Source: a virus
Strand: one strand, 5' to 3'
IMG/VR virus record: IMGVR_UViG_3300021139_001730
Location: 1 to 22,158 of that record
Length of the DNA: 22,158 bases
Shown piece after piece: positions 2,192 through 22,158 of the stretch. The notes under the pieces were generated by a model, which had not been told where the DNA came from, did no database searches, and worked only from the letters and a program-made list of their open reading frames with translations. Made by a program: the position numbers and the translations under genes. Numbering within the stretch: the first letter of the stretch is position 1; every line of letters begins with the position of its first letter.

Positions 2192-2199
2192 GATAAATA
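2192..2199 (+). promoter_or_regulatory. T4-type late promoter candidate (GATAAATA)
   Basis: GATAAATA matches the T4 late -10 consensus TATAAATA at seven of eight bases. It lies in the only gap of this part of the genome, 46 bases upstream of the ATG at 2246, and precedes a run of coupled genes through 6847. T4-type late promoters need no -35 element. It is a short AT-rich match, so chance is possible. Confidence 0.4.
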
Positions 2200-2245
2200 C
2201 TCTAAATCCATAGCGTTCTATTGGGTATGTAAAACCGAGGCAGAT

Positions 2246-2617
2246 ATGCGTATACAAGAGTTATTAGAAAACGCTCATTTTAAAGAGTTAGATTTTGTTA
2301 AAAAACAAGGCGATAAGCGCGAGCTAGACTATGATTTAGTAGAAGATCTTTTACATTTCATGCACAATGACGATAGTGTATACCGTCGCCATGTGTTCCC
2401 TGTATTAATGAAATGCATAGATAATATTAAAGATAAAAAAACTACTAACCCTAACATGTTTGCAGAAACCATGAAAGAGTGTTACAAACTATATAAGAAA
2501 AAATTTCCTATACGCGAATTACCTGATATGTTAGAAGAAAAAGTGTGCAAAGATGCCTGTGAAAAATTGCACGATGAAACAAGAGAACATATTCAGTCCG
2601 GAAAATACAAGGACTAA
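2246..2617 (+). CDS. Phage protein of unknown function with N-terminal leader (123 aa)
   Basis: This small, charged, probably all-helical protein begins MRIQELLENAHF. The start resembles the openings of several neighbours (M-x-x-x-E-L-L), and L6-L7-E8 fits the L-x-E pattern cut by T4-type prohead protease gp21. The rest is rich in Lys, Asp and Glu, with cysteines near the C-terminus (KVCKDACEKL). No catalytic motif is visible. The start has GAGG at 2237-2240. The stop is two bases before the next ATG, so this is the first gene of the coupled run 2246-6847. The length and position resemble small T4-like phage proteins that I cannot name. Confidence 0.75.
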   Translation: MRIQELLENAHFKELDFVKKQGDKRELDYDLVEDLLHFMHNDDSVYRRHVFPVLMKCIDNIKDKKTTNPNMFAETMKECYKLYKKKFPIRELPDMLEEKVCKDACEKLHDETREHIQSGKYKD

Positions 2618-2619
2618 TT

Positions 2620-4482
2620 ATGTTACTACGCGAACTTTTTACTAGTGTAAGAAAGCCTATTCTCAAAGAAAGTAATAATATATGGCCAGATACCCAGCCT
2701 TTTGATCAAGCGATTGCTGATCAATTAGCAGATGCTACTAATCGTTATCTACATACAATAAGTCCAGATGTCACGGTATACAGATACGGAAGCGGTGCTA
2801 CACCTACTCCGGGGAAATTAAGTGGGGATCTCGATGTTATGGTAGATTTGGGGCATTTAAATAATATATTCGGTACTAAAGAAGGCAAAACAGCAAGAAT
2901 CGCATTAGAAAAAAGTCTACAATTACAAGGACTTGAAACCAAAAAGACTGGAACACAAGTGCATATTAAGTTGCCATATAAAGGCAAGTTTCATCAAGTA
3001 GATATCAAAGTTGTTGCCAATGCCGAACATGTACACAAACTTCACATTCATAATATTCCTCCAGGTAGTCCTTACAAAGGAGTACATAAACAAGTTTTAT
3101 TAAGTACGCTAGCTTCTCATAAAGGTATGTTATACTCACCAGACGAAGGGTTATACGCTAGAGATGCTGCTGGAAAAAAGAGTCAATTTATTAGTCATAA
3201 CTTAGATGTTATAGCCAAAAAATTATTTGGGCCTACCGCTACTGCCGATACTATGGGTAGTGTTGAAAGTATATTGAATAATATTCCAGACGAAGCATTG
3301 CGCAATCAATTGCTACAAAAAGCTAGCGAAGGTGCAAGTTGGCAAGCTGTTACACCACAACCGATTAACGAAGCTGCGGCACCTGCTGTTGGACGCAAGT
3401 ACCAACACATAGAAGACTTAGTGTTTACAAATGGTAGCACCGGAGGATTACATGCTGTTGAACGACTACGCCATATGACCAGTAAGGGTGGAACTATAGA
3501 ATTAAAGTGGGACGGAAGTCCTGTAGTCTATTGGGGTCGTGATGAAGAAGGCAAGTTTCGCATGTTTCCCAAAAACGCTTGGGATTATATGAAGCGTGGT
3601 ACTACTCATACCAAGAGTGGAGTTACTACCATGATGAATGATCCAGATGATGTTGCTATGTTTATTCTAGGAACAGGAACAACACAACCTGGACAAGAAG
3701 ATCAACGTCGTGCATTTGCTCAAGGGCTTGCGGATCTTTGGCCGTACTTTGAAAAAATCAGTCCAAAGAAAGGCTATATCGAAGGCGGTATATTATTCAG
3801 TCCATTACAACCGGCACAACTAAATCAGTCAACTAACGAATACGATTTCCAACCTAATATAACAGCTTTTCATATTCCAGCAGGAAGTGAATTAGGCAAA
3901 CGTATTGCCAAGGCAAAAGTTATGGTTGCTGCAACTGGCTATTATACACACATTGGTGCAGATGAAACACGTTATCCCAATGCTGAAAAATTGTCTACTG
4001 CAGATGTCATTGTACAAGGTACAACATATGTTGAAAATGCTCCGCAAGTAGATTCAACTGGATTGGATCACACTGAAGATTATATTAAGAGTAATAAGGC
4101 AGCAATTGACAGTTTTATTGCTGGACAACCTGGTCTAAGTAAACCAGGAGATGTGCTTTATAGTTTCTTTAATCAAAACTTACGTGTGCAAGGTGTTAAA
4201 CAAAAGTTTGCACAATGGGCACAATCTAAACTAAGCAACACTCAAGCACAGAAGATACTAAGTCATCCAGGGTTGGACGCTGTACTAACAGCCGTAGAAT
4301 TACTAACACATGAAAAAATGAAAGTAATTAATTCATTAAGTTCAGGCACACACGGCGGAATTCGTCAAACAAAGCCAGAAGGATATGTACAAGCGCATCC
4401 TGGTGGCAAATTTAAAAACGACTTGCCTGGACAGTTTGTCAAAACTATTGACCAGGCTAACTGGGCACCAAGGAAAGACTAA
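2620..4482 (+). CDS. Nucleotidyltransferase / ligase-like two-domain fusion
   Basis: Residues about 50-135 carry a Pol-beta-type nucleotidyltransferase signature: G57-S58, then D70-L-D72 in GKLSGDLDVMVD, and a third Asp at D128 in HQVDIKVV. Residues about 260-600 form a second domain containing ELK296-WDG299-SPVVYWGRD, which resembles motif I (K-x-D-G) of the covalent nucleotidyltransferase/ligase superfamily, and GYIE388GGILF, a plausible motif III or IV. This half resembles a family of T4-like phages that I recall as DUF6267. Nothing shows the substrate; RNA or nucleotide end-modification is a guess. The N-terminus, MLLRELFTSVRKPILKE, is leader-like with an L-K-E site. The interdomain linker contains I249-N-E251-A, another possible prohead-protease site. 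The start has AAGGA at 2609-2613. The stop overlaps the next ATG (TAATG). Confidence 0.8.
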   Translation: MLLRELFTSVRKPILKESNNIWPDTQPFDQAIADQLADATNRYLHTISPDVTVYRYGSGATPTPGKLSGDLDVMVDLGHLNNIFGTKEGKTARIALEKSLQLQGLETKKTGTQVHIKLPYKGKFHQVDIKVVANAEHVHKLHIHNIPPGSPYKGVHKQVLLSTLASHKGMLYSPDEGLYARDAAGKKSQFISHNLDVIAKKLFGPTATADTMGSVESILNNIPDEALRNQLLQKASEGASWQAVTPQPINEAAAPAVGRKYQHIEDLVFTNGSTGGLHAVERLRHMTSKGGTIELKWDGSPVVYWGRDEEGKFRMFPKNAWDYMKRGTTHTKSGVTTMMNDPDDVAMFILGTGTTQPGQEDQRRAFAQGLADLWPYFEKISPKKGYIEGGILFSPLQPAQLNQSTNEYDFQPNITAFHIPAGSELGKRIAKAKVMVAATGYYTHIGADETRYPNAEKLSTADVIVQGTTYVENAPQVDSTGLDHTEDYIKSNKAAIDSFIAGQPGLSKPGDVLYSFFNQNLRVQGVKQKFAQWAQSKLSNTQAQKILSHPGLDAVLTAVELLTHEKMKVINSLSSGTHGGIRQTKPEGYVQAHPGGKFKNDLPGQFVKTIDQANWAPRKD

Positions 4483-5819
4483 TGTTTTTACGTGAATTTT
4501 TAAATCGTACTGGTGAAGGCAAAGCGGCTGTAGTTGGCTGGGGACGTGGCATGGGTCACAAAGGACACATGTATTTGGCTAGTAGTGTAATTACACAAGC
4601 CAAAGATCACGGAGCAGATCCGTATTTTGTGGTTAGTCGCACAGTCGGTAAAGATGATCCAATCACACCTGATGAAAAATTAGGAATCTACAAAAAAGTA
4701 TTTCCTAAACATGGACATATTTTTCATACAGCTACAGATGAAATGCCAGATTTAACTCGTGTATTAACTCAATTGAGCAAACATGGATATACCGATGTCA
4801 CTGTTGTTGTAGGTGCTGACCAAGTCGGTGCATTAAGTTATGTTAAGAACTATAACGGCAAACCTGATAAATCTGGAAATATTCCATTTGATTTTAACAC
4901 ATTAAATGTTATTGCTCGTCAAGAAACAAATGATCCTAGTGCCGGTGAAGAAGGACCACGTGCTACGCCTATGCGAGCAATATTGCAAGATCCTAATGCA
5001 ACTGAAGAAGAAAAATTTGCAGCATGGCGTGATGCAATGAGTCCCGAACTAAGCGATGACGAAGTTCGTGAGCTAATGAATAAAGCACAACAACGCATGG
5101 CAGATCCTGCATTCGGTAAAGCACCTAAGAAGCCTAAGAAAGAAAAAGTAGCAGATGAAAGTCTAATGGGATTTTTAGGCAAAGTTGAAAAACCTGCCAA
5201 GAAGAAACCTGTAGCCAGTGCAGAAGAGATGCGTAAATGGTTTGAAAAAGAAAAAGGTGCAGAACCTGAAAAAGTAGAAAGAGACAGCGAAGGTAAAAAG
5301 ATTAAACAAGTGTTTACTAGGTCGGATGAGAATTCGATTAAATATGCTAACAGGATGATAAGAGAAATGAGAGCACAAGAATTCATAAGACGACAATTGA
5401 ATGAAAAGGCAACTATAACTGCTGCTACACCAGATGCTCCTTATGCCGGACAAGGCGACAGTGATGATTTAGCAGACGAACACTTAGCAGGATTGAATCA
5501 TGCTGTGAGTTTTCCATCTATTAGCATGAACAAATCAAACGGTAGTAGTTATTTGCAATATCGCTTTGGCTTAGCCATGGCGGGTGCTCATCCTAATCCT
5601 AACGATCACATGCCTGTGCCTATGAGCACTGGTGGAGCATTTAGTGGCGACCCATTAATTGCTCCGTTTAGCGATCAAGATTTAGAAATAGTTAAAGCCG
5701 CTGGCAAGCATATTGGTGCCGGTAAGATGACTAAGTTAGCTGACAGAAGTAATGAGTTGTCTGATACTAATAAAATTAGTCCTGTTGCTAAACAAAAGAA
5801 AAATAGATACGGTATATAA
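4482..5819 (+). CDS. Nucleotidylyltransferase fused to a small phage domain
   Basis: Residues 14-185 form a HIGH-type nucleotidylyltransferase (the NMN adenylyltransferase/cytidylyltransferase superfamily): GMGH26KGH29 matches the H-x-G-H nucleotide-binding motif, VVVGADQV is a typical strand-turn, and GPRATPMR matches the conserved S/T-x-x-M-R segment of phage members. A Lys/Glu-rich linker (about 215-290) follows. At M296 the sequence restarts with MRAQEFIRRQLNE, a leader like those of neighbouring proteins, then a domain with YLQYRFGLAMAGAH, ending in SPVAKQKKNRYGI. That ending is nearly the same as the next protein's, so the second half looks like a normally separate gene. An internal ATG at 5367 has AGGA at 5352-5355. 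The substrate is unknown; nicotinamide mononucleotide is one candidate. The gene is coupled at both ends by TAATG overlaps. Confidence 0.8.
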   Translation: MFLREFLNRTGEGKAAVVGWGRGMGHKGHMYLASSVITQAKDHGADPYFVVSRTVGKDDPITPDEKLGIYKKVFPKHGHIFHTATDEMPDLTRVLTQLSKHGYTDVTVVVGADQVGALSYVKNYNGKPDKSGNIPFDFNTLNVIARQETNDPSAGEEGPRATPMRAILQDPNATEEEKFAAWRDAMSPELSDDEVRELMNKAQQRMADPAFGKAPKKPKKEKVADESLMGFLGKVEKPAKKKPVASAEEMRKWFEKEKGAEPEKVERDSEGKKIKQVFTRSDENSIKYANRMIREMRAQEFIRRQLNEKATITAATPDAPYAGQGDSDDLADEHLAGLNHAVSFPSISMNKSNGSSYLQYRFGLAMAGAHPNPNDHMPVPMSTGGAFSGDPLIAPFSDQDLEIVKAAGKHIGAGKMTKLADRSNELSDTNKISPVAKQKKNRYGI

Positions 5820-6193
5820 TGCGAGCTAAAGAATTTTTATCTGAAAGAACAGGAAAACACCATACAGATCATGCATCTGTGCATAAAGGTATTAGTGCAG
5901 ATAGAGATCCTGGTGGATATTATCCTAATTATCATCAGTTAAGAACAGGTATGGCATTAGCAATGGCCGATGGTGGAAAAGATAAATTAGATGTAGACCA
6001 TGAAAGCTGGATGGGGCCTTTCTGGACTCAACATCCTTATACTGAAGTTGAACACAATATGTTCAAACAAGTACGTAAAGCTATACCTACTGAACATCAT
6101 CAGAGAACACCTTGGGCAGATAGTAAAGAACCAGATGATACACATAAAACTAGCCCTATAGCAGCTCGCAAGAAGAACAAATACGGAATTTAA
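5819..6193 (+). CDS. Small phage protein with leader, relative of upstream C-terminal domain
   Basis: This 124-aa protein starts MRAKEFLSERTG, with L-S-E matching a gp21-type cleavage pattern. It contains DPGGYYPNYHQLRTGMALAM, then an acidic/aromatic part (ESWMGPFWTQHPYTEVEHNM), and ends SPIAARKKNKYGI. The end and the central GMALAMA/GLAMAGA segment match the C-terminal domain of the preceding gene, so the two are likely paralogous or share a functional tail. I recall similar short proteins in T4-like phages of marine and freshwater origin, without known function. Its ATG overlaps the preceding stop by one base, and one base separates its stop from the next ATG. Confidence 0.8.
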   Translation: MRAKEFLSERTGKHHTDHASVHKGISADRDPGGYYPNYHQLRTGMALAMADGGKDKLDVDHESWMGPFWTQHPYTEVEHNMFKQVRKAIPTEHHQRTPWADSKEPDDTHKTSPIAARKKNKYGI

Positions 6194-6194
6194 C

Positions 6195-6632
6195 ATGGAC
6201 GAGAAATATCATCTAGCACTTAAAACAGCATTTGCCAGTGAATTTAGTTTTTATCTAAAAGCACACAACTTTCATTGGAATGTAGAAGGCCCGTTATTTG
6301 GTCAATTGCATGAACTATTCGAAAGAATCTATACAGAAGTATATGGCAGTATTGATACATTTGCGGAACACCTACGTGCGTTACAAATCTATACGCCAGC
6401 CAGCTATGGCAAATTCAGCATGCTTACCGCAGTGCCGGATGAAAATCGTGTACCAGAGTGGAAAGAAATGTTAGAAGAATTACTAGCAGATAGTGACCGT
6501 ATGGCAGATATATTCCGTATTACATTTGATATGGCTGAAGCGAATGGCGATCACGGACTAAGTAATTTCTTAGCCGATCGTCAAGATGCACATAAAAAGC
6601 ATAGCTGGATGTTAAGAGCGAGTTTAAAATAA
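6195..6632 (+). CDS. dps: Dps-type ferritin-like protein
   Basis: This 145-aa protein matches the Dps family along most of its length: a first helix leading to AHNFH27WNVEGPLFGQLH39ELFE43, then GSID54TFAE58HLRAL. The residues expected at the inter-subunit ferroxidase site are present with the right spacing (H27, H39, E43, D54, E58, corresponding to H51, H63, D67, D78 and E82 of E. coli Dps). It lacks a Lys-rich N-terminal tail, so non-specific DNA binding of the E. coli type is not evident. Known role of the family: a 12-subunit shell that oxidises and stores iron and protects DNA from peroxide. Inference: protection of replicating or packaged phage DNA, or iron handling during infection. It is coupled to the following gene by a TAATG overlap and has no leader of the neighbours' type. 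Confidence 0.92.
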   Translation: MDEKYHLALKTAFASEFSFYLKAHNFHWNVEGPLFGQLHELFERIYTEVYGSIDTFAEHLRALQIYTPASYGKFSMLTAVPDENRVPEWKEMLEELLADSDRMADIFRITFDMAEANGDHGLSNFLADRQDAHKKHSWMLRASLK

Positions 6633-6847
6633 TGGATGAACTAGCACGTCTTAAGAAGTTAGCTGGAGTTAATGAATTTAAAGGTTTACAACCATACGAG
6701 CTAGACGGAATTAATATCAGTGTTACTGGTACAGAAAAAGCTAAGTTAATGCGTGAACACAATATACAACCTGGAACACCAGAATGGTTTCAATTATGGT
6801 TTAGCAAGCCTTATCTCACATCAGAGCCGCCAATCGGCAAAAAATAA
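6632..6847 (+). CDS. Small phage protein (71 aa) next to GIY-YIG insertion
   Basis: The protein begins MDELARLKKLAGVNEF, similar in style to the leader-bearing neighbours, and contains a C-terminal segment PGTPEWFQLWFSKPYLT that I recall from short proteins of T4-like phages. No enzyme motif is visible. It ends TSEPPIGKK. Downstream of the GIY-YIG gene that follows, bases 7491-7517 encode TGEKPVGK and a stop, very like this protein's own end. This suggests that the 3' end of the gene is the site where the endonuclease gene entered. The ATG overlaps the dps stop. Confidence 0.8.
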   Translation: MDELARLKKLAGVNEFKGLQPYELDGINISVTGTEKAKLMREHNIQPGTPEWFQLWFSKPYLTSEPPIGKK

Positions 6848-6879
6848 ACCATATTTAACTAGCGATACTAAATAAATGC

Positions 6880-7491
6880 ATGGATACTTATTATGTCTAC
6901 GCATATCTTAGAGAAGACGGAACTCCCTATTATATAGGTAAAGGAACTAAAGATCGAGCATGGACTAAAGGTAAAGGAGAGGTAGGAAAACCTACAGATT
7001 CTTCTTGCATTATTATTGTAGAGTCAAAACTGACCGCGGTAGGCGCATTAGCTATTGAGCGTCGATTAATAAGATGGTATGGTAGAATAGATCAAGGTAC
7101 TGGAATTTTGAGAAATCAAACAAACGGCGGAGACGGAGGACCTGGATCTAAAACAGGAAGGCCCGGGCGTAAAGGAATACCCAGAGGACCACATTCAGAA
7201 GAAACTAAAGCTAAAATTAGATTAGCACGAGCTAGGCAAATTATACCTAAACGATCAGAAGAGCATAAAAAAGCAATATCAAAAGCACAAAAAGGTATTC
7301 CTAAAAAATTAGAATCAATAGAAAAACAGCGTCAAAAAATAGTAGGAAGAAAACCCATAGGACCGGAAAGGGAAAACTATCTAAAGGCAATGGAACAAGG
7401 AACTACTACCTGTGAATATTGCGGTAAAACAACAAATAAAGGCAACTACCTAAGATGGCACGGATTAAAATGCAAACTAAATATAGTATGA
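6880..7491 (+). CDS. GIY-YIG homing endonuclease with NUMOD3-like repeats and zinc finger
   Basis: The N-terminal GIY-YIG nuclease domain shows Y5-V-Y7, then Y17-Y-I-G20-KG, a conserved Arg (R26 in KDRAW), a catalytic Glu candidate (E60 in LAIERRL) and [11 protein letters not shown]. The middle holds two NUMOD3-like DNA-binding repeats (HSEETKAKI and [14 protein letters not shown]). The C-terminus is a single zinc-finger-like motif, C178-x2-C181-x12-H194-x3-C198. The family makes site-specific breaks that spread the gene into related phages. It is a free-standing gene between two phage genes. The ATG follows CTAAATAAATGC with no ribosome binding site, unlike its neighbours, so its expression may be low or specially controlled. 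The end contains CTAAATA, which may serve the next gene. Confidence 0.88.
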
Positions 7492-7517
7492 CTGGTGAAA
7501 AACCTGTAGGAAAATAA
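7491..7517 (+). pseudogene. Remnant C-terminal coding end of the 6632 gene
   Basis: In the frame opening at 7491 the DNA reads TGEKPVGK and a TAA stop, directly after the GIY-YIG gene. The intact gene before the endonuclease ends TSEPPIGKK and a stop. T, E, P, G and K align, with I/V conservative and one extra Lys in the upstream copy. Two bases separate the stop from the next ATG, the usual spacing here. The simplest reading is the original 3' end of the interrupted gene, left downstream when a variant end arrived with the endonuclease. It is only nine codons including the stop, so this is an inference. Confidence 0.5.
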
Positions 7518-7519
7518 TT

Positions 7520-8125
7520 ATGAAAATGAATGAATTAGTTGAAAGTTTAAGTGATGACTTTGCAAAATTTGCAAAAGATTTACAAAAAAATAATCCTAAG
7601 TTTAAAAACTTACGAATACACGGTGATCCTGAACATGACGAACTACGTCGTCAAGATGCAGAAGCTCGAGAAAAACGTCTTGCACAACCTGCGGTTGCTC
7701 CTAAAGAACTAAGCGCAGAAGAGCGTCATCGACTAGAACAAGAATTAGGACATTTAGAAGCTCAATTTGATCCCAACTATCAATACAGTGATGATCATAG
7801 TGTGTATAGTAAACATCACAGTCTAGCACAGCGTATTAGTAGTATTAAACATAGATTGAAGCAAGGTGTGGCGGAATCAGCTAGTGCAGGTGCTACAAGT
7901 GCAGCCAGTATCGGTACTGTAGATGCTCCACAACTAAGCCCAGGCAAAGCTCGTGGTAAGAAAAGCTACACTGGATCACCGGGTAAAAGTGGCACAAAAG
8001 CGCCACCACAGCCTAAAGTAGTACAGCCAAAAACCAAGATGGGAACCGCTGTAAATGCCTTAGATATGAAGGGTAAGAACATTTTTGGCCAAGCTGCAGA
8101 GTCAGCAGTAATCAAAAGACGCTAA
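7520..8125 (+). CDS. Leader-bearing low-complexity phage protein (201 aa)
   Basis: It opens MKMNELVESLSDDF, with L-V-E matching the prohead-protease pattern. Residues 60-115 are a charged, probably helical stretch (AEERHRLEQELGHLEAQF). After GVAESASAGATSAASIGTVD the protein becomes Pro/Lys/Gly-rich and probably disordered. I recall similar Ala-Gly-Thr segments in capsid-associated or hypothetical proteins of T4-like phages. No enzyme motif or membrane segment is visible. AGGA at 7508-7511 precedes the ATG. It is probably a virion or scaffold-associated protein, judged by leader, composition and neighbours only. Confidence 0.75.
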   Translation: MKMNELVESLSDDFAKFAKDLQKNNPKFKNLRIHGDPEHDELRRQDAEAREKRLAQPAVAPKELSAEERHRLEQELGHLEAQFDPNYQYSDDHSVYSKHHSLAQRISSIKHRLKQGVAESASAGATSAASIGTVDAPQLSPGKARGKKSYTGSPGKSGTKAPPQPKVVQPKTKMGTAVNALDMKGKNIFGQAAESAVIKRR

Positions 8126-8128
8126 ATA
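8121..8128 (+). promoter_or_regulatory. Possible late promoter overlapping a stop codon (GCTAAATA)
   Basis: GCTAAATA matches six of eight bases of TATAAATA. It contains the stop codon of the gene ending at 8125 and lies 23 bases before the ATG at 8152, which has its own ACGGAG site at 8139-8144. Similar CTAAATA sequences occur at 7477, 6868 and 12296, three of the four at gene ends. The match is weak on its own. Confidence 0.25.
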
Positions 8129-8151
8129 CATAAAGATAACGGAGTATACTC

Positions 8152-9405
8152 ATGCCAGGATTAGACAACATGGAGCCAGGAATGGACCAACAAGAACCAG
8201 CACAAAATGATGTAATTGGTACACACGGTGAAGCAGATCGTGAAGGCGCAATGGCCAAAGCTGATTTGTTCAAATTAGCCAATTATTCACATAAATTGTA
8301 CCAACAAATTAATGATGAAGATCAATTAGAAGCATGGGTACAAGCAAAGATTACTAAAGCCGCTGACTATATTGCCAGCGTTTATCACTATTTAGAATAT
8401 GAAATGAAGTTCAGCGAGTACGGACATCATTTGGATAACAGCGATACCTTAAGCGAAAGTCAACGTCGTGTTCTTAAAGCTCGTTTAAACGAAGCTAAAG
8501 AAAAAATGAAAGAGTTGAAAAAGACTCAAGCTGAAAAAATGAAAGCTAAAGAAGCTAAGAAAGTAGAAGAGGGAATTTTAACTGGCGGCGAATGCGAGTG
8601 TACAGAATGTGGTGGTACTGGTAAAGTTTACAGAGAGCCTGCACAGGTTCCTGCGCATGTTAAAGCTAAAGCTGAAAAGTATAATACTCTAGTAAAAGCT
8701 ACTAAAGCGGCTCACAAACGTATGGATGCTAATCATAATGGTATTCCAGATGATGAAGAGGCAATGGATGAAGATTTTGATTCTTTAAAGAAGACTGGTG
8801 ATACAACTAAGACTTCTAAAGGTGCTACAGTTACAAAAACTGATACTGGTATCAAACATGAGCGTCCTTCTTCAAGCTATAGTGACGAAGACGGTGACGA
8901 AAAATCAGGCAAAGGCACTAAGAGCCATGCTAAGTCAATGTCGGCTTCAGAAAAGAAAGATCGTGCTCCAGCACAAAAGAAATCTAAAACAGGTACTTGG
9001 GGTATGGAAAACAGTGAAAAGTTTGACAACCGTAAGAAAGACGAATCAATTGCTGAAGCTAAACCAAGCGCAGGTCTAAGCAAAGAGAAAAAATCTGCTA
9101 CAGTTAAAGCCGCTAAGAAAGGTGAAGACATTGGTAAGCCAGGTAAAGGTTTTAAATCTCTTGCTAAGAAAGCTGGCGGTGGCGAGAAAGGCGAGAAAAT
9201 TGCTGCAGCTGCTATGTGGAAGAACATTAAAGAAACCCAATCATACATTGCCGAAAAAGCAAAAGTTAAACCAGACTATATTGATTTAGATAAAGACGGT
9301 GATAAAACTGAGCCAATGAAAAAAGCTGCTAAAGAAAAAGAAACTGTTAAAGAGTCTGCAGATTTAGCTCGCATGCGTCAATTAATGACACGTTTGAACG
9401 GTTAA
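8152..9405 (+). CDS. Charged low-complexity phage protein with EF-hand-like loops and CxCxxC
   Basis: Residues 25-115 look helical and more ordered. A Lys/Glu coiled stretch follows, then CEC150TEC153GGTG (C148, C150, C153), like one half of a DnaJ-type zinc repeat. Residues 192-203 (DANHNGIPDDEE) fit an EF-hand calcium loop at positions 1, 3, 5, 6, 9 and 12. A second Asp-rich loop, DLDKDGDKTEP, lies near the C-terminus. Residues 205-340 are Lys/Ser/Gly-rich and disordered. The end is ADLARMRQLMTRLNG, a tail I recall in structural or internal proteins of T4-like phages. The function is unknown; a core or scaffold role is possible. The start is supported by ACGGAG at 8139-8144. Four bases separate it from the next gene. 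Confidence 0.75.
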   Translation: MPGLDNMEPGMDQQEPAQNDVIGTHGEADREGAMAKADLFKLANYSHKLYQQINDEDQLEAWVQAKITKAADYIASVYHYLEYEMKFSEYGHHLDNSDTLSESQRRVLKARLNEAKEKMKELKKTQAEKMKAKEAKKVEEGILTGGECECTECGGTGKVYREPAQVPAHVKAKAEKYNTLVKATKAAHKRMDANHNGIPDDEEAMDEDFDSLKKTGDTTKTSKGATVTKTDTGIKHERPSSSYSDEDGDEKSGKGTKSHAKSMSASEKKDRAPAQKKSKTGTWGMENSEKFDNRKKDESIAEAKPSAGLSKEKKSATVKAAKKGEDIGKPGKGFKSLAKKAGGGEKGEKIAAAAMWKNIKETQSYIAEKAKVKPDYIDLDKDGDKTEPMKKAAKEKETVKESADLARMRQLMTRLNG

Positions 9406-9409
9406 TACC

Positions 9410-10438
9410 ATGGACATGAAGCGCATACTACAGGCGATGGATGGAGTTGCTACTAAACCTGTAGTAGGCGCCGATAGCATGGCTAAACTTTTATCCATTG
9501 TAGATAAAAACGCCAGTACACAAGTTCTTAACGAAGGCAATCCTCACAAAGTCACATTGCCAGTACAAATGGCAATGCAACACTATCAACAAAAAGAAGA
9601 AACGCCCAAAGCCCGTGTGGGTAAAACTACACTGGTAGGCAAATACTTTCACGAAGTTGAACAAGAATTTCAAGAACAACAAGCACAAAAACGTCAGTTG
9701 ATCAATCAATATGCCAGCACAATTGCTGAACGTGTATTGATGAAAGAAAGTGTTGTTAATGAAAAAAGTACAAGTGAAAAACAAGCTCGTTTTATGGCGG
9801 CGGCCGCACACGATCCTGCATTTGCTGCACGTACAGGCATTAAACAAAGTGTAGCCAAAGAATTTAATAAAGCTGATACTGGTACTAAACAATTAAGCAA
9901 TGCGATGAAGCATAAGCCTAAGAAAAAATCAGTTAAAGAAAATGAAATTTCAGATCATAGTATGGGTTTTAAACCTGGTCCTGGCGGACCGGGTCTACAG
10001 AGTAATGTAGCAGAAGCACCCATAGATTTTGATAAAGAAAATCCCACAGCCAGTACTATACATAGTCATCAAGGTGTAAACCCTGCCAGCATCGAAGCAC
10101 GCATCATGCGAGCACGAGGTCAATTGAAAGATCTAGCTAGTAGAGCCGACAGTAACGAATTAATAGTATGGGAAAGTATTGCAAGAAATTTCCCAGAGCT
10201 AACTATGAACATCGAACAGATTCGTCATGGTATAGAAGAACTGGCCAAGATTAGAAAAGGTGGTGGACGTAGAGTACATAACATACCGGACAATATTGGC
10301 GAAGAAAATAGCATCAAAGAAGCCAATGCCAAAAAGCGTACACTGAAAAATTCAAACCCGTGCTGGACGGGTTACAAACCAGCAGGCACTAAGAAAAAAG
10401 GAGGCCGCACAGTACCTAACTGTGTTCCAAAGGAATAA
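9410..10438 (+). CDS. Phage protein with leader and CW-GY-PNC C-terminal motif (342 aa)
   Basis: The start is MDMKRILQAMDG, followed near residue 40 by VLNEGN, an L-N-E cleavage-type site. The middle is Gln/Lys-rich and helical, with VLMKESVVNEKS and an Ala-rich AAAAHDPAFAARTG segment. A compact part (about 220-290) has a helical pair typical of small structural domains. The C-terminus contains NPCWTGYKPAGTKKKGG and ends VPNCVPKE. This paired-cysteine tail recurs, as I recall, at the ends of unrelated proteins in T4-like phages, and may be a binding or anchoring tag. No enzyme motif is seen. The gene belongs to the 8152-11938 unit, three bases from the next ATG. Confidence 0.75.
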   Translation: MDMKRILQAMDGVATKPVVGADSMAKLLSIVDKNASTQVLNEGNPHKVTLPVQMAMQHYQQKEETPKARVGKTTLVGKYFHEVEQEFQEQQAQKRQLINQYASTIAERVLMKESVVNEKSTSEKQARFMAAAAHDPAFAARTGIKQSVAKEFNKADTGTKQLSNAMKHKPKKKSVKENEISDHSMGFKPGPGGPGLQSNVAEAPIDFDKENPTASTIHSHQGVNPASIEARIMRARGQLKDLASRADSNELIVWESIARNFPELTMNIEQIRHGIEELAKIRKGGGRRVHNIPDNIGEENSIKEANAKKRTLKNSNPCWTGYKPAGTKKKGGRTVPNCVPKE

Positions 10439-10441
10439 ACT

Positions 10442-11938
10442 ATGAACATGCGTGATTTACTTAATAAACTAGATACAGTATCTGAAAGCAATATATCCGA
10501 ATTTAGAGTCGATGCTGGAAGACCACACGATTTTTATCGTCATGATAATTACTACGGTAATCCTCGTATGTGGAGACCAGAGTGGCGCGAACCACGTATG
10601 TGGGGTATAAATCCTTTAACAGGATTGTTATTTACAGCTGCTGAAATTGCTGCACTAAGCAATCAAGGAGTGACGCCTATGATGATACAACAAATGCCGC
10701 CACAACAAGTAGCGCAAGTAGTACAAGCTGCTCCACCAGCAGGTGCTCCGCCTATGCCAAGTAGTGCACCAGTTACATCTGGGCCAGCCGTACCGGTAGG
10801 TCAACCTACTACAGGTGCAACTAAGTACTATAATCCAAACGGTGACGGTACATTCCAAGATCATCCTTATACACAAAGCGGAGGTACTGCTGGAGATCCT
10901 GTAGACACTACTAAAGATGATGCAGATAAAGCAGCTAAAATTTCACGTTTCAAAGAGCTGTTGGCAAAAGCAGGTGTTAGTGATAAACCTACTGGGTTAG
11001 ACAGTGTTGACAAACCATTTAATCCAGATTATAGTTTAACTGGTGGTAAATCAACAGGCGGAATCGGCATAAAAGAAAGTTCTATTAATGGATTTGCAAG
11101 AGATCCGCTATTAGAAAAATTAAGATTGATCGAATCTGGACATAAATTCAACGAAGGTTTAACTCCAGAAGAAAGTAAAGAGTTAGATAAACTCTACGGT
11201 GATCTAAGTGTTACAGGAAAAAACGATCCTAAATTAGCACCATTATTTGCACAGTATAATAAAGTACCAAGTGCATCTGCTGCAGATCCTACAACACCAA
11301 ACACAGCTGCAGATCCTGCAGATACTACCAAACCACAACAATGGGCACCAGGTGTACTACATGTAGGTAGCACAGGACCTGAAGTAATAGCATTACAAAA
11401 ACAATTAGGAATTAATGCCGATGGTAAATTTGGTCCTGCAACTAAAGAAGCTGTTATGGCAATGCAAAAAAAGCTAGGAGTTACTGTAGACGGCGCATGG
11501 GGTCCAAAGTCAAAAGCAGCATTTGCGGCAAAAGGCGGAACAGCACCATCACCATCAGATACAACTAAAGGCGACGGTAAGTGGACTGGTAGTGCAAAAG
11601 ACTGGGGTAGTGCAATTGGTGGCGGCTTAGGAACCGCAGCTGGGTTTGCAGGCGGAGGGCTTATTGGTACCGAGGTCGCAGGACCCGTAGGTACAATGGC
11701 TGGAGCTGCAACCGGTGCGGTTGCAGGACACGATATCGGTGCAGACCTTGGCGGTAAAGCTGGCGAATGGTTAGGCCAAGCTGGAGACAAGATTGGTAAA
11801 TCTTGGGATGCTGCTAAAACTGCTTGGAACGGTAAACCCGATAATACAGCGGCTGCTCCTGCAAAAACAACTAAAGAAAGTATCGAAGTTGACTTTGCTA
11901 ATCAGTTAATTGAAAGTTTCGGTTACCAACCTAAGTAA
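10442..11938 (+). CDS. Peptidoglycan-binding / glycine-zipper protein, probably virion-associated
   Basis: This 498-aa protein starts with a leader, MNMRDLLNKLDTVSESNISE. An aromatic/Arg-rich patch (RMWRPEWREPRMW) and a long Pro/Ala/Gly-rich linker follow. Residues about 304-361 form a PG_binding_1 domain (GSTGPEVIALQKQLG, DGKFGPATKEAV, DGAWGPKSKAAF). Residues about 388-436 are a glycine-zipper segment (GGGLGTAAGFAGGGLIG and onwards), able to insert in or span a membrane. The end, ESIEVDFANQLIESFGYQPK, is amphipathic. No lytic catalytic domain is seen, so it should bind rather than cut cell wall. Inference: a virion protein acting at the envelope during DNA entry, or an anchored structural part. 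AAAGGA at 10429-10434 precedes the start. A terminator directly follows, so it ends its unit. Confidence 0.82.
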   Translation: MNMRDLLNKLDTVSESNISEFRVDAGRPHDFYRHDNYYGNPRMWRPEWREPRMWGINPLTGLLFTAAEIAALSNQGVTPMMIQQMPPQQVAQVVQAAPPAGAPPMPSSAPVTSGPAVPVGQPTTGATKYYNPNGDGTFQDHPYTQSGGTAGDPVDTTKDDADKAAKISRFKELLAKAGVSDKPTGLDSVDKPFNPDYSLTGGKSTGGIGIKESSINGFARDPLLEKLRLIESGHKFNEGLTPEESKELDKLYGDLSVTGKNDPKLAPLFAQYNKVPSASAADPTTPNTAADPADTTKPQQWAPGVLHVGSTGPEVIALQKQLGINADGKFGPATKEAVMAMQKKLGVTVDGAWGPKSKAAFAAKGGTAPSPSDTTKGDGKWTGSAKDWGSAIGGGLGTAAGFAGGGLIGTEVAGPVGTMAGAATGAVAGHDIGADLGGKAGEWLGQAGDKIGKSWDAAKTAWNGKPDNTAAAPAKTTKESIEVDFANQLIESFGYQPK

Positions 11939-11940
11939 AC

Positions 11941-11966
11941 AAATGGCAGACTAGTTCTGCCATTTT
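11941..11966 (+). terminator. Rho-independent terminator
   Basis: A perfect 10-bp stem (bases 41-50 paired with 56-65 of 119xx, AAATGGCAGA with TCTGCCATTT) has a 5-base CTAGT loop and ends in Ts. It begins two bases after the stop of the preceding gene and lies before a sigma70-type promoter. This is the clearest transcription stop in the window. Confidence 0.85.
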
Positions 11967-11967
11967 C

Positions 11968-11989
11968 ACCTCTAAAATTTCATAGAGGT
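11968..11989 (+). terminator. Second hairpin after the terminator
   Basis: ACCTCTA at 11968-11974 pairs with TAGAGGT at 11983-11989 around an 8-base loop, followed by TGATTTTA. It may be a backup terminator. Its 3' arm touches the -35 box of the next promoter, so it could also be incidental. Confidence 0.4.
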
Positions 11990-12017
11990 TGATTTTACAA
12001 GATAAGTAATATATAAT
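11989..12017 (+). promoter_or_regulatory. Sigma70-type promoter before the dsbA-like gene
   Basis: TTGATT (11989-11994), a 17-base spacer and a perfect TATAAT (12012-12017) form a near-consensus host-type promoter. Transcription would begin about 12024, a few bases before AGGAG (12031-12035) and the ATG at 12042. This suggests expression by host RNA polymerase early in infection. Confidence 0.75.
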
Positions 12018-12041: not shown

Positions 12042-12299
12042 ATGGGCGGTCGTTCGTACGGTGCAGAAGAAAAGGCAAAATTAGAAAGATTAATTAGCGA
12101 AGGTTCTACAGTCTTACGTGAAGTAGAAGATTTGCAAGAAGGCTTGAAAGAAACTGTTAAAGCAGTTGCTGAAGAATTACAAATTAAACCCAGTGTTATT
12201 AACAAAGCTATTAAGATTGCTCACAAAGGCGATTGGCAAAATTATAACGCAGACTGGGAAGAAATTGAAGCTATTTTAGATATTACAAAACGTATCTAA
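12042..12299 (+). CDS. dsbA: DsbA-like dsDNA-binding protein (late transcription)
   Basis: This 85-aa helical protein resembles T4 DsbA (89 aa) in size and in its C-terminal half: a helix around EELQIKPSVINKAIKIAHKG, then DW and an acidic ending EEIEAILDITKRI, matching the T4 pattern of LGVDG..FNR.L...HK...F..E..E. Known role: T4 DsbA binds double-stranded DNA near late promoters and modestly enhances late transcription. It has its own sigma70-type promoter and a strong AGGAG at 12031-12035. T4 places dsbA near genes 33 and 59; here it is separated from the DNA polymerase gene only by an antisense endonuclease. The alternative is another small helical DNA-binding protein. Confidence 0.7.
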   Translation: MGGRSYGAEEKAKLERLISEGSTVLREVEDLQEGLKETVKAVAEELQIKPSVINKAIKIAHKGDWQNYNADWEEIEAILDITKRI

Positions 12300-12391: not shown

Positions 12392-13108
12392 TCACCTGGT
12401 CCACATTGTGACCAAATTGTATACCTTGCGAATATCTTGTTCTCGCAACATAGTATTTTTATACAATTCGCCAAAAGTTTTGCCAGTCTTTATGTTAATC
12501 TGATTAGCAGGGTAAATCTCTGGATTGCCGTGCCAGAAAGAACCGTAACATTCGTACACTGTGTTTGTATTAGGATCAAATCCATCAACTACTACAGTGC
12601 GAGTATCTAATATGACTGTATGTTGCCTCAATGGAACTCTTAAAGAATCTAGCCAAGCTGTTTCAACTTTACTTATATTTCCTGGTTTAAGATTTTCTAA
12701 TCTGGTTTCATACCAGCAAGCTGGACAGCCGCCTTTTCCAATTAAATGCGTTTCGGCCTTTTTAAGATGGAATAATCCGTGTAGATTGCAAGATATAGAA
12801 ATAGAATGTTTCATTCCAGTATATTCTGTTATAAAAGAATACTTGTTGCCGTACCGGTTGACACTTTTTTCAACAAAATTTTTATGGGTATAAGCAAAAT
12901 TATGAGAACATTTAGGACATCCTTGTTTTTGATTTATATGATCGCACGGTCGTTGTTCAAAAACTCCGTGAATAGAACACTTAATTTTAATTTTAGTATA
13001 AGAATTTTTATACTCAACTTCAGAATAATCATAGGCAAAATTATGAATTTTGCCAGCTTTTTCAATATAAGAACTAGTAGTGTAGCGTATTCCGGTGTTT
13101 GGTTTCAT
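12392..13108 (-). CDS. Antisense endonuclease: DUF723-like zinc repeats plus Vsr/PD-(D/E)XK-like nuclease
   Basis: From M at 13108 the protein has 238 aa. Residues 28-67 and 84-131 are two repeats of the same plan: a Cys-x2-His-Gly-x-Phe segment (CSIHGVF, CNLHGLF), then GCPKC or GCPAC, resembling DUF723-type zinc DNA-binding repeats. Residues 148-238 resemble Vsr-like homing or PD-(D/E)XK nucleases: VVVD175GFDPNTNTVYE186CYGSFWH193GNP. Such genes are mobile in phages. It is the only convincing - strand gene in the window. The start at 13108 is preferred to 13135 because AGAG precedes it and a perfect late promoter lies 30 bases upstream on the same strand. It is inserted between dsbA-like and polymerase genes and opposes their transcription. 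Confidence 0.82.
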   Translation of the reverse strand: MKPNTGIRYTTSSYIEKAGKIHNFAYDYSEVEYKNSYTKIKIKCSIHGVFEQRPCDHINQKQGCPKCSHNFAYTHKNFVEKSVNRYGNKYSFITEYTGMKHSISISCNLHGLFHLKKAETHLIGKGGCPACWYETRLENLKPGNISKVETAWLDSLRVPLRQHTVILDTRTVVVDGFDPNTNTVYECYGSFWHGNPEIYPANQINIKTGKTFGELYKNTMLREQDIRKVYNLVTMWTR

Positions 13109-13138
13109 TTTATTCTCTGTACAAAGTATCAACATAAG

Positions 13139-16648: not shown

Positions 16649-17380
16649 ATGAAAGACTTTTTACAAGACCTAGTAGCACATACACATAGCTTGGGATTTT
16701 TACCTTTGGTAAAAGTTTCAGCTAGCGAAAAAGAAATCGCAATTGAATCATTAGCAGAGGATCGTAGTGTAATCCTTAATGCTAAATCAAAAGAAACAGT
16801 AGAAGATTTTGAAGGCGTATTTGGTATGCCTAATCTTAATAAATTGGACATTATTTTAAAGTGTCCCGAATATAAAGAAAATTTTACTATTAACGTAGTT
16901 AGACAAGAACGCAATGGAGAAGAAGTTCCAACAGGCTTACATTTCCAAAATGGCGCTGGCGATTTTGAAAACGATTATCGTTTTATGAATCAAGATATCA
17001 TTAATGAAAAAATGAAATCAGTTAAGTTTAAAGGTGCAAACTGGGATATCGAGTTTGAGCCAACTATGGCCAGTATTCAACGTTTTAAATTCCAAAGTGC
17101 AGTACACAGCGAAGAACAAACTTTCCAAGTTACTACTAAAGATGGTAACTTAGTGTTTAGTTTTGGTGATGCAAGCACTCACGCTGGTAATTTTGTATTC
17201 CAAAGCGGAGTTAGTGGCAAATTAAAACAGTCTTGGTCATGGCCTGTTACACAAGTTCAAAGTATTTTGAACTTAACCGGTGACAAAACAATGCGTATTG
17301 CAGATGCAGGAGCATTACAAATTACTGTAGACAGTGGCATTACAGAATACGAATACATTCTACCAGCTCAATCTAAATAA
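16649..17380 (+). CDS. Sliding clamp-like protein (T4 gp45-type, probable)
   Basis: This 243-aa acidic, mostly beta protein resembles T4 gp45 (228 aa) in length and layout. A central DFEGVFGMPNLNKLDII segment recalls the gp45 DFDVAIYDLNGFLGIL region. The second half has SAVHSEEQTFQVTTKDGNLVF, then SWSWPVTQVQSILNLTGDK and ITEYEYILPAQSK, like the closing strand of the second clamp domain. Known role: the trimeric clamp tethers polymerase and, in T4, activates late transcription with gp33 and gp55. Support comes from position near polymerase and a strong promoter; the sequence similarity is moderate. The start has AGGAG at 16638-16642. TAA overlaps the next ATG by one base, coupling it to the DpdA-type gene. 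Confidence 0.65.
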   Translation: MKDFLQDLVAHTHSLGFLPLVKVSASEKEIAIESLAEDRSVILNAKSKETVEDFEGVFGMPNLNKLDIILKCPEYKENFTINVVRQERNGEEVPTGLHFQNGAGDFENDYRFMNQDIINEKMKSVKFKGANWDIEFEPTMASIQRFKFQSAVHSEEQTFQVTTKDGNLVFSFGDASTHAGNFVFQSGVSGKLKQSWSWPVTQVQSILNLTGDKTMRIADAGALQITVDSGITEYEYILPAQSK

Positions 17381-19086
17381 TGAACAAAAATCTGACAGCT
17401 ACACAGAACGATTATGCGTACTTCCTGCCGGCAACGTCAGGTTTTTATAGTACGTATATAGGCAAACAGCGCCACAGCAACTATGTAGATCCAGCACGTA
17501 TTCCTTCTAGCTTTGGGCCTAAAGGGATCGAAGCTATGAATTACCTAGATCCTAACGCAGCATTCTATTTCGATCATTGCTTATACTCAGCTGGACATGC
17601 CAACTTAGATCTTACTAAATTTGATCCTAGTGAAGACATGTTTCGTAATAGAGACCGTTCAACTAGTTGGGTGTTAGGCGATTCAGGCGGATTCCAGATT
17701 GGTAAAGGTGTATGGGCAGGTGAATGGAGAGATCCTAATGGTCCAGAAGTTGCAGCTAAATGGGCAGAGGTTCGTGCTAAGGGTGTTGAATTAGTTCAGC
17801 AATTTCATCCGACTGGACATCCTAAGACTGATAAGAATGGCAATCCTAAGTATACCAAGATTGATCACGTTAAAAACTATCAAGCACTATTAGATGCGGC
17901 ACAGAAAAAACGTGAACAAGTATTAGCATGGATGGATGCACTGATGGATTACGGTATGGTACTTGATATTCCTGCATGGGTTGAACGTAGCCCGGTTGGT
18001 AAAGCAGCTACAGGTATTGCAAGTTATGATCAAGCTGTAGAAGCAACCAAGTATAACAATGAATATTTCATTAAGCATCGTACTGGTGCTTGTAAGTTCT
18101 TAAATGTGTTGCAAGGTGAAAATCACAAGCAGGCCGAGGACTGGTATCAAAAAATGAAAGATTTTTGTGATCCTAAGATCTATGGCGACATGGCTTTCAA
18201 TGGCTGGGCTATGGGTGGACAGAATATGTGTGATGTTGAATTAACATTGCGTAGATTAGTTGCATTAAAGTTTGATGGACTTCTTGAAAAAGGTCATCAA
18301 GACTGGATGCACTTCTTGGGCACCTCTAAATTAGAATGGGCATTATTATTAACTGACATACAACGTGCAATAAGGAAATACCACAATGAAAACTTTACCA
18401 TATCTTTTGATTGCGCCTCACCGTTTCTGGCAACAGCAAACGGACAAATCTATGTCCAAACAGAAATCAAAGACAGAGAAAAATGGCTCTACCGCATGTT
18501 GCCAAGTCTTGACAACAAAAAATACGCCAAAGATACTAGGTTATTCCAAGACGTAGTAGTACAAGACAAACATTTCGAGTCTTTTACTACTAGTCCGCTA
18601 ATGGATGGTGTTAAGGTTAATGAAATCTGTATCTATGGGCCTGGAGATCTAAATAAAGTAGGTAAGGAAGGTAAAACTAGCTGGGATAGTTTCACCTATG
18701 CTATCATGATGGGCCATAATGTTTGGTTGCATTTGAATAGTGTACAAGAAGCCAATCGTCAATATGATGCCGGACTGTGCCCTGCAATGCTTGTTGATGA
18801 AAAATTTGAAAGAATTTACTTCCGCGATATCGTCGATGCTATTTTTAGTGCGCCTGACAGAGATACAGCTATTGCTATTATTGATAGTTTTGATAAATTT
18901 TGGCAAGCTATACCTGGAACTCGTGGGTATACTGGTAAACGCACAGTCAATGCTAGTACTAAGTTCTCCGAATTATTTGAAGAAATAGACGGAGATAGTG
19001 TACAATCAGAAGATGAAGTGGATTTTGACGAATCTGCAATAGATAAACTAGACGCATTAGAGGCCAGTGTACATGACATTACCTGA
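17380..19086 (+). CDS. dpdA: DpdA-type transglycosylase (tRNA-guanine transglycosylase superfamily)
   Basis: The 568-aa protein carries superfamily signatures: GD101SGGFQ106, as in the TGT guanine-binding and general-base loop; LNVLQGE; and ISFD344CASP348, then ANGQIY, aligning with TGT's FDCV-x-P...NG segment that contains the nucleophilic Asp. No CxCxxC zinc site of bacterial tRNA enzymes is visible, and the C-terminus ends in an acidic tail (VQSEDEVDFDESAIDKL). Length, FDGLLEKGHQDW and LGTSKLEWALLL favour phage DpdA-type enzymes, which insert 7-deazaguanines into DNA, over tRNA-specific TGT. Known role: protection against restriction. The precursor synthesis genes (FolE, QueD, QueE, QueC) are not in the window. 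It follows the clamp-like gene by TAATG overlap. An archaeosine or tRNA role cannot be excluded. Confidence 0.82.
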   Translation: MNKNLTATQNDYAYFLPATSGFYSTYIGKQRHSNYVDPARIPSSFGPKGIEAMNYLDPNAAFYFDHCLYSAGHANLDLTKFDPSEDMFRNRDRSTSWVLGDSGGFQIGKGVWAGEWRDPNGPEVAAKWAEVRAKGVELVQQFHPTGHPKTDKNGNPKYTKIDHVKNYQALLDAAQKKREQVLAWMDALMDYGMVLDIPAWVERSPVGKAATGIASYDQAVEATKYNNEYFIKHRTGACKFLNVLQGENHKQAEDWYQKMKDFCDPKIYGDMAFNGWAMGGQNMCDVELTLRRLVALKFDGLLEKGHQDWMHFLGTSKLEWALLLTDIQRAIRKYHNENFTISFDCASPFLATANGQIYVQTEIKDREKWLYRMLPSLDNKKYAKDTRLFQDVVVQDKHFESFTTSPLMDGVKVNEICIYGPGDLNKVGKEGKTSWDSFTYAIMMGHNVWLHLNSVQEANRQYDAGLCPAMLVDEKFERIYFRDIVDAIFSAPDRDTAIAIIDSFDKFWQAIPGTRGYTGKRTVNASTKFSELFEEIDGDSVQSEDEVDFDESAIDKLDALEASVHDIT

Positions 19087-21711: not shown

Positions 21712-22158
21712 ATGTTTTATGTTTATGGATTATATAACCCTATTACAGAACAACTTTTTTATATCGGAAAAGGTACAAGGGCAAACAATCGTCACAACGA
21801 TCATTTAACCGAAAGTCGTGGAAAAGAAAATCGACTACGATGGAAACAAGTATGCGATATACGAAAACAAGGACTTGAACCGGGTATTCAAATTTTGATA
21901 GACGATATAGATGACGAAACAATTGCATACAATAAAGAGACTGAACTAATCAAATACTACGGAAAACTTATTGATAATACCGGAATACTTACAAATATTT
22001 TAGATGATGCTAGGCCGCCTTCGTGGAAGGGCAGAGTTAAAACCGAAGAGCACAGAAAAAATCTTTCAAAGTCGCATATGGGGAAAACGCTGTCAGAAGA
22101 AACAAAGCGGCGAATTATTGAAACTAAGACTAAAAATGATTCATTCAAATCGGGTATG
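21712..22158 (+). CDS. GIY-YIG homing endonuclease, 3' truncated by window edge
   Basis: The frame runs from a well-supported ATG (AAGGAG at 21698-21703) to the window end without a stop, giving 149 residues. It shows VYGLYNPITEQLFYIGKG, the two halves of the GIY-YIG core, with R23 in GTRANN and a later Arg/His patch, then a Glu in KETELIKYYGK and TGILTNILDD. A NUMOD3-like DNA-binding repeat follows (KTEEHRKNLSKSHMGKTLSE). It is a different lineage from the gene at 6880, since only the core motifs are shared. It sits directly after a stub of a disrupted gene, as expected for a homing gene at its target. Confidence 0.85.
   Translation, partial: MFYVYGLYNPITEQLFYIGKGTRANNRHNDHLTESRGKENRLRWKQVCDIRKQGLEPGIQILIDDIDDETIAYNKETELIKYYGKLIDNTGILTNILDDARPPSWKGRVKTEEHRKNLSKSHMGKTLSEETKRRIIETKTKNDSFKSGM

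Follow-up and report, generated by a model that had tools for sequence, protein, structure and literature searches.

A gene at the end of a probable late unit

The window analysed here is the whole of a 22158-base virus record, a fragment without head genes from a lake phage related to T4. On its plus strand, a gene with an ATG start (10442..11938) encodes a protein of 498 aa, and orthologues lie at the same place in four further loci (L001-L004). The protein begins with a leader of 15 residues (10442..10486), MNMRDLLNKLDTVSE|S, which a comparison of leaders including T4 propeptides predicts to be a capsid-targeting propeptide; it ends in VSE|S, with V where T4-type sites have L or I. There follow a variable N-terminal region (aa 16-212, 10487..11077), predicted to be a separate or discarded piece and ending at IKE|S, a short piece between this site and LIE|S (aa 213-231, 11078..11134), and a predicted mature piece (aa 232-491, 11135..11914), which according to site mapping on the sequence alone would hold both a wall-binding domain and a glycine zipper. 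The C-terminal tail (aa 478-498, 11873..11935) carries LIE|SFGY, a motif that is internal in longer homologues. We also considered the tail, DELARWLKIARG, as a copy of the gp22 tail and rejected this, the best scores being within the range of shuffled queries.

The wall-binding domain is PG_binding_1 (PF01471; aa 312-356, 11375..11509), found at 40.2 bits against a Pfam cut-off of 23 and overlapped by a weaker match to PG_binding_3. Pfam detects no catalytic domain against peptidoglycan in the protein. Downstream, the glycine-zipper region (aa 388-446, 11603..11779) appears from its GxxxG count, hydropathy and segment identities to be a swappable module. GxxxG occurs 12 times in aa 386-446; when this stretch is shuffled, 5.9 are expected, and 12 are reached in a fraction of 0.001 of the shuffles. 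Hydropathy is modest (Kyte-Doolittle maximum 1.15 in a 19-residue window, with E409 inside). An earlier note had proposed that a leader, a peptidoglycan-binding module and a glycine zipper are combined in one protein without a lytic domain, and the sequence bears out this architecture. The zipper does have a true GxxxG register, but its standing as a defining part is weaker: because it is weakly hydrophobic in the target and absent from the close orthologue L004, whose leader, PG-binding domain and tail are kept in the alignment, it cannot, as judged from these sequences, be the essential core of the protein.

A tblastn search of the 498-aa protein against 50,697 phage records returned a single match, a mycobacteriophage lysin, in the PG-binding part; the same search with two long slot proteins (see below) returned none. 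The AlphaFold model of the protein was unusable (mean pLDDT 34.7). Its PHROG matches are to endolysins, a tail-associated lysin and a tape measure, and are due to the PG-binding and G/A-rich stretches. Taken at face value, they would make the protein a remnant of a tail-associated lysin or a tape-measure-like tail protein. We regard this as very improbable, as there is no lytic domain, the leader matches that of head cargo, and in a sister record, G001, tail genes and a candidate tape measure of 1077 aa are found elsewhere.

Judging from the sequence, the gene is probably the last of a late unit (2246-11938), whose genes often carry T4-type capsid-targeting leaders. The T4 late-promoter motif is TATAAATA; this exact motif is absent upstream of the unit, but the looser TAAATAC is present in a late-promoter-like site, GATAAATAC (2192..2200, plus strand), whose TAAATAC is separated from the first leader gene by 52 bp. 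At this distance from the same gene, G001, G002 and G006 have the same AGCGATAAATACTCTAA, and in these records TAAATAC is also found upstream of a core gene, a tape-measure candidate, fibre-like genes and a few others. On the plus strand lie the first gene of the unit (2246..2617; leader MRIQELLE|N), a DUF6267 protein identified by Pfam (2620..4482; MLLRELF), a cytidylyltransferase-like protein identified by PHROG (4482..5819; MFLREFL) and a 124-aa protein (5819..6193; MRAKEFLSE|R). The unit is closed by a terminator-like 10-bp stem (11941..11965), symmetric and scored on the minus strand, and a similar stem is visible in G001. Behind it, a sigma-70-like promoter of the next unit (11989..12017, plus strand) has 10/12 matches, such sites being no commoner than in shuffles.

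Also inside the leader-bearing unit are a Dps/ferritin-like gene that has no leader and is kept in relatives (6195-6632), and a homing-endonuclease-like ORF (6880-7491); the latter and a similar ORF at 21712-22158 have NUMOD3 or GIY-YIG matches.

Probable late expression, together with wall-binding and hydrophobic segments, would also suit a protein that serves lysis from inside the cell as infection ends. Such a role is hardly credible for a protein that has no lytic domain, displays no obvious secretion signal (by inspection of the sequence) and has a leader common to enzymes without a lysis role.

A variable slot beside the replication genes

The slot in which the gene lies directly precedes the replication genes. 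The left border is the upstream neighbour starting MDMKRIL (9410..10438, plus strand), which has modules in common with annotated virion proteins, and the right border is an 85-aa regulator-like gene of conserved position (12042..12299, plus strand). The initial search brought up L001, whose protein is identical, and L002, L003 and L004. In all four the orthologue lies between these two genes, beside the DNA polymerase; an alignment-based search from the four orthologues gave nothing beyond them. The window's polymerase is nearest to those of Sinorhizobium phage Phosso (49%) and Agrobacterium phage Atu_ph07 (45%), followed by other jumbo phages, and at the positions beside the polymerase in Phosso and Atu_ph07 no slot protein was recognisable by eye. 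Between the 85-aa gene and the polymerase, the minus strand of the window carries a 247-aa ORF with a DUF723 match (12392-13135), possibly a homing-endonuclease-like insertion, at a spot where spacing differs in several relatives. A 568-aa protein further on (17380-19086) is kept in relatives and has no Pfam match at 0.001 and no PHROG match at 0.01.

A polymerase search confirmed 526 loci, the best 80 of which were compared. Both borders are present in 52 of these 80 (duplicates of one contig included), and between them lie a leader protein (35 loci), nothing (10), a 199-aa gene whose L041 copy matches 2OG oxygenases in Pfam (6), or no long ORF (1, L055). The slot of L055 (747-3207) measures 2.46 kb and has no long plus-strand ORF, perhaps owing to a frameshift or a decayed gene. 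Among the same best 80, the leader form is present in 25 of 30 distinct occupants, chosen by position, versus 0 of 290 internal methionines of occupants, and the bodies behind these leaders are very different. As 10 of the 52 slots are empty and 6 hold the 199-aa gene, the function of the slot is, as far as these sequences tell, dispensable or supplied elsewhere. In two empty-slot phages, L009 (710-2290) and L015 (5239-7581), the neighbouring gene ends, by eye, in a hydrophobic module like those of slot proteins L066 (small) and L023; Pfam gives no match for these neighbour proteins.

Twenty-three full-length slot proteins of 174-939 aa, including the target and three orthologues, were compared as a set. 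PG_binding_1 was detected by Pfam in 18 of them at E<=0.05 (our own 4-sequence profile found fewer, 14/23), and PG_binding_3, DUF6861, FtsQ and the Acb2 hairpin occur in one to four members each. No lytic Pfam family was found in any of the 23 at E<=0.05, nor an enzymatic Pfam family in the target or the set, and they thus do not answer to the description of polyvalent proteins (Iyer 2017), in which each injected protein is reported to carry several unlike, largely enzymatic domains (PMC5512222). Among slot fragments at contig edges, 6 of 7 match PG_binding_1 (L020, L042, L058, L068, L071, L051) and L072 has no Pfam match. One occupant outside the set, L082, has LysM at 50 bits instead of PG-binding. 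These counts support a wall-binding role kept by selection, and the slot would seem to renew wall binding by unrelated folds (PG-binding, LysM).

The AlphaFold model of an 807-aa slot homologue reached a mean pLDDT of 52.7; its recognisable Foldseek matches are PG-binding folds, with E above 1 in PDB. Against viral models it had 0 matches at E<=0.001, leaving its N-terminal domain (aa 30-168) without a name. As for hydrophobic segments, the lax cut of 1.2 is passed by 20/23 slot proteins in one or more windows of 19 residues, and 9/23 attain 1.6, while the target, L003 and L004 nowhere come up to 1.2. By this measure the family probably contacts the membrane; for the target, whose zipper the earlier note had called membrane-active, such contact is no more than possible.

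The orthologues differ from segment to segment. Target and L003 share 63/63 residues in the PG-binding part and 33/52 in the zipper; with L004 the identities are 19/20 in the leader, 41/63 in the PG-binding part and 12/52 in the zipper. Read from the alignments, these values amount to mosaic exchange of modules. In the same phages, polymerases are 95-99% identical whereas slot proteins are 69-75% identical. Such fast module turnover, along with the empty slots, would fit a dispensable role in an arms race, where an ejected or late-made envelope protein protects the infected cell by blocking a second phage or countering envelope-based defence, leader and cleavage being unchanged. That T4 IPI is described as an anti-restriction internal protein (PMC9026906) lends this some weight. 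No homology to known exclusion proteins was found in Pfam, PHROGs or NCBIfam, however, and the wall-binding domain fits entry equally well, and we place protection of the infected cell on the unlikely side.

Leaders and candidate protease sites

Across four records of the clade, the leader form starts 18 of 334 proteins versus 3 of 1925 internal methionines, homologous genes being counted repeatedly; it is also present on a core gene beside the portal. For comparison, the T4 record reads MKTYQEFIAE|A in IPII and IPIII, an ITE|A site in IPI and MAKINELLRE|S in gp24. The T4 prohead protease gp21 is reported to cleave after L/I-x-E (PMC9026906). The leader that the earlier note had called virion-type can thus be linked to T4-type capsid targeting and gp21-like sites.

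A gp21-type protease together with known substrates bearing the same site was found in the sister record G001 only. This 97.8-kb record contains the polymerase, the 807-aa slot protein and a head module in T4 order. The module runs from the portal through two core genes, one of 80 aa that begins MILRELF and then an acidic one, to the gp21 protease (PF03420), gp22 and gp23 (PF07068); portal, core genes and gp22 were named by position and by eye. The gp23 precursor has RKYLME|SPTA near the expected place. When the 278 proteins of the four records that measure at least 100 aa are ranked by their excess of [LIM]xE[SAGN], gp22 comes first (12 vs 2.24) and gp21 second (4 vs 0.74); the 807-aa slot protein has 5 vs 1.70, and the target 3 vs 0.78, a count that is modest taken singly.

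Over the 23 slot proteins, whose relatedness means that site counts are not independent, [LIMV]xE[SA] was observed 82 times versus 28.2 expected, and [LI]xES 44 times versus 5.1. Controls in which E is replaced by D, K and Q gave 31 vs 48.8, 76 vs 61.6 and 34 vs 37.5, respectively, and the reversed motif, likewise a control, shows some enrichment (56 vs 37.4). The motif [LI]x[EK]SFGY is present in 21/23, with the target's copy at the C-terminus.

Having many LxE|S sites, like gp22, the slot proteins could be core or scaffold filler that helps build or size the prohead and is fragmented by gp21, most pieces then leaving and the wall-binding domain being incidental; T4 core proteins are indeed described as cut by gp21 into several fragments (PMC9026906). 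The placement of the sites argues against filler, since only 6 of the 82 lie inside PG-binding envelopes, all in the last one or two residues, and the domains are predicted to stay uncut inside. Wall binding is moreover kept, or replaced by an unrelated wall-binding fold, which is needless for filler, and slots can be empty. Altogether, we hold filler to be quite unlikely. If every site were cut, aa 232-491 of the target would keep wall binding and zipper together; of the 14 proteins in which our own profile finds PG-binding, 10 would have this domain on the same predicted piece as a hydrophobic segment.

A candidate ejected envelope protein

We estimate a probability of about one half that the 498-aa protein is a T4-type internal head protein that is processed by gp21, ejected, and acts at the envelope. 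The steps of this reading differ in strength. Leader and sites make it quite likely that the protein is head cargo cut by gp21, and its packaging into the head is well supported by inference; packing, cleavage and ejection are what we infer from these features. Action at the envelope is evenly balanced, formation of a channel is doubtful, and membrane insertion and help to DNA entry are speculative.

The first 15 residues would target the protein into the prohead core, and a gp21-type protease cutting after L/I/V-x-E would take off the leader and free about aa 232-491 with the wall-binding domain and zipper. This piece would share the head with the DNA and be ejected when the phage infects. 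Speculatively, its PG-binding domain might then anchor it at the wall in the periplasm, and its zipper module might touch or enter the inner membrane; the anchored piece may in this way help DNA or co-packed proteins through, or condition the envelope. Frequent swapping of envelope modules would fit adaptation to different host envelopes or rivals.

T4 IPI, IPII, IPIII and Alt have a capsid-targeting sequence, are processed by gp21 and are ejected. The target resembles T4 internal proteins in its short leader at the N-terminus, whose closing L/I/V-x-E is followed by a small residue, and in its likely late unit, and the head-module gene order of G001 is also like T4. On such features it would belong to this family and function as its members do, though with a task at the envelope. 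Unlike T4 internal proteins, with which no body similarity was found, most slot homologues are 488-939 aa long and slot proteins combine wall-binding and hydrophobic modules, several internal sites and rapid module exchange. The T4 internal proteins known to us have their tasks in assembly or in the cytoplasm, and contractile tails already puncture the wall; these points count against the present reading, as do the empty or otherwise filled slots and the weak or missing zipper.

Other systems are comparable in part. Ejection proteins of the giant phages SPN3US and phiKZ are described as losing propeptides to a prohead protease, with several sites per protein, and as being ejected with DNA (PMC5694885); compared by description, several of their propeptides exceed 100 residues and have a different motif, unlike the slot proteins. 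The T7 gp14-gp15-gp16 ejectosome is similar in logic, its head proteins handling wall and inner membrane and having mosaic domains (PMC8954989). T7 is a podovirus, however, and gp16 has a wall hydrolase; searches of Pfam, PHROGs, NCBIfam and PDB sequences match the 498-aa protein neither to gp14, gp15 or gp16 nor to a wall hydrolase, and we do not propose a tunnel. The type VI secretion effector Tde1 also has a GxxxG-rich stretch, a zipper reported to permeabilise the inner membrane (PMC10240207), but it is a secretion-system toxin of no known homology to the 498-aa protein, likened to it by the GxxxG feature.

That the gene sits in a slot whose contents are reshuffled between phages suggests an interchangeable tool for cell entry. 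Tentatively, lake T4-like jumbo phages may possess a dedicated, fast-reshuffled locus for head cargo, from which membrane modules released by the protease and anchored to the wall would be delivered as an ejected device for entry or envelope control. We know of no such device described in contractile-tailed phages, and the matches listed in searches of the open-licence literature include no described T4-like wall-binding internal protein, in agreement with the earlier note, which knew of no T4-like example. Few internal head proteins of T4 relatives have an assigned use. If an ejected, envelope-acting protein is the right reading, contractile-tailed phages would also deliver proteins of this kind, and a leader with LxE|S sites may serve as a rule for finding packaged cargo in uncultured phages.

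The leader-bearing unit has counterparts in clusters of cyano-, pelagi- and methylophage T4 relatives, where cytidylyltransferase homologues likewise lie amid leader-bearing proteins. DUF6267 homologues were found in cyanophages (17 records) whereas cytidylyltransferase homologues, present in 163 records, extend beyond cyanophages to pelagiphages, methylophages and a few others; the two adjoin in P-HM1. The clusters of P-HM1, ACG-2014d, Melnitz-2 and HTVC008M each contain several proteins with like leaders, e.g., MKKFSDFLSE|A and MKKFSEIIE|A, and no wall-binding slot protein was noticed in them by eye. For cyanophage S-CREM2, a cytidylyltransferase (ORF154) is reported among the proteins detected in virions, together with the products of its neighbours ORF155 and ORF156; the authors caution that abundance could explain virion detection (PMC10665884). 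By likeness only, ORF154 being likened by annotation, these data would support packing of the cargo cluster. In L110, L111, L107 and L108 (methylophage, pelagiphage, cyanophage), the cargo-like clusters whose genes have leaders of T4 type are mostly annotated as hypothetical.
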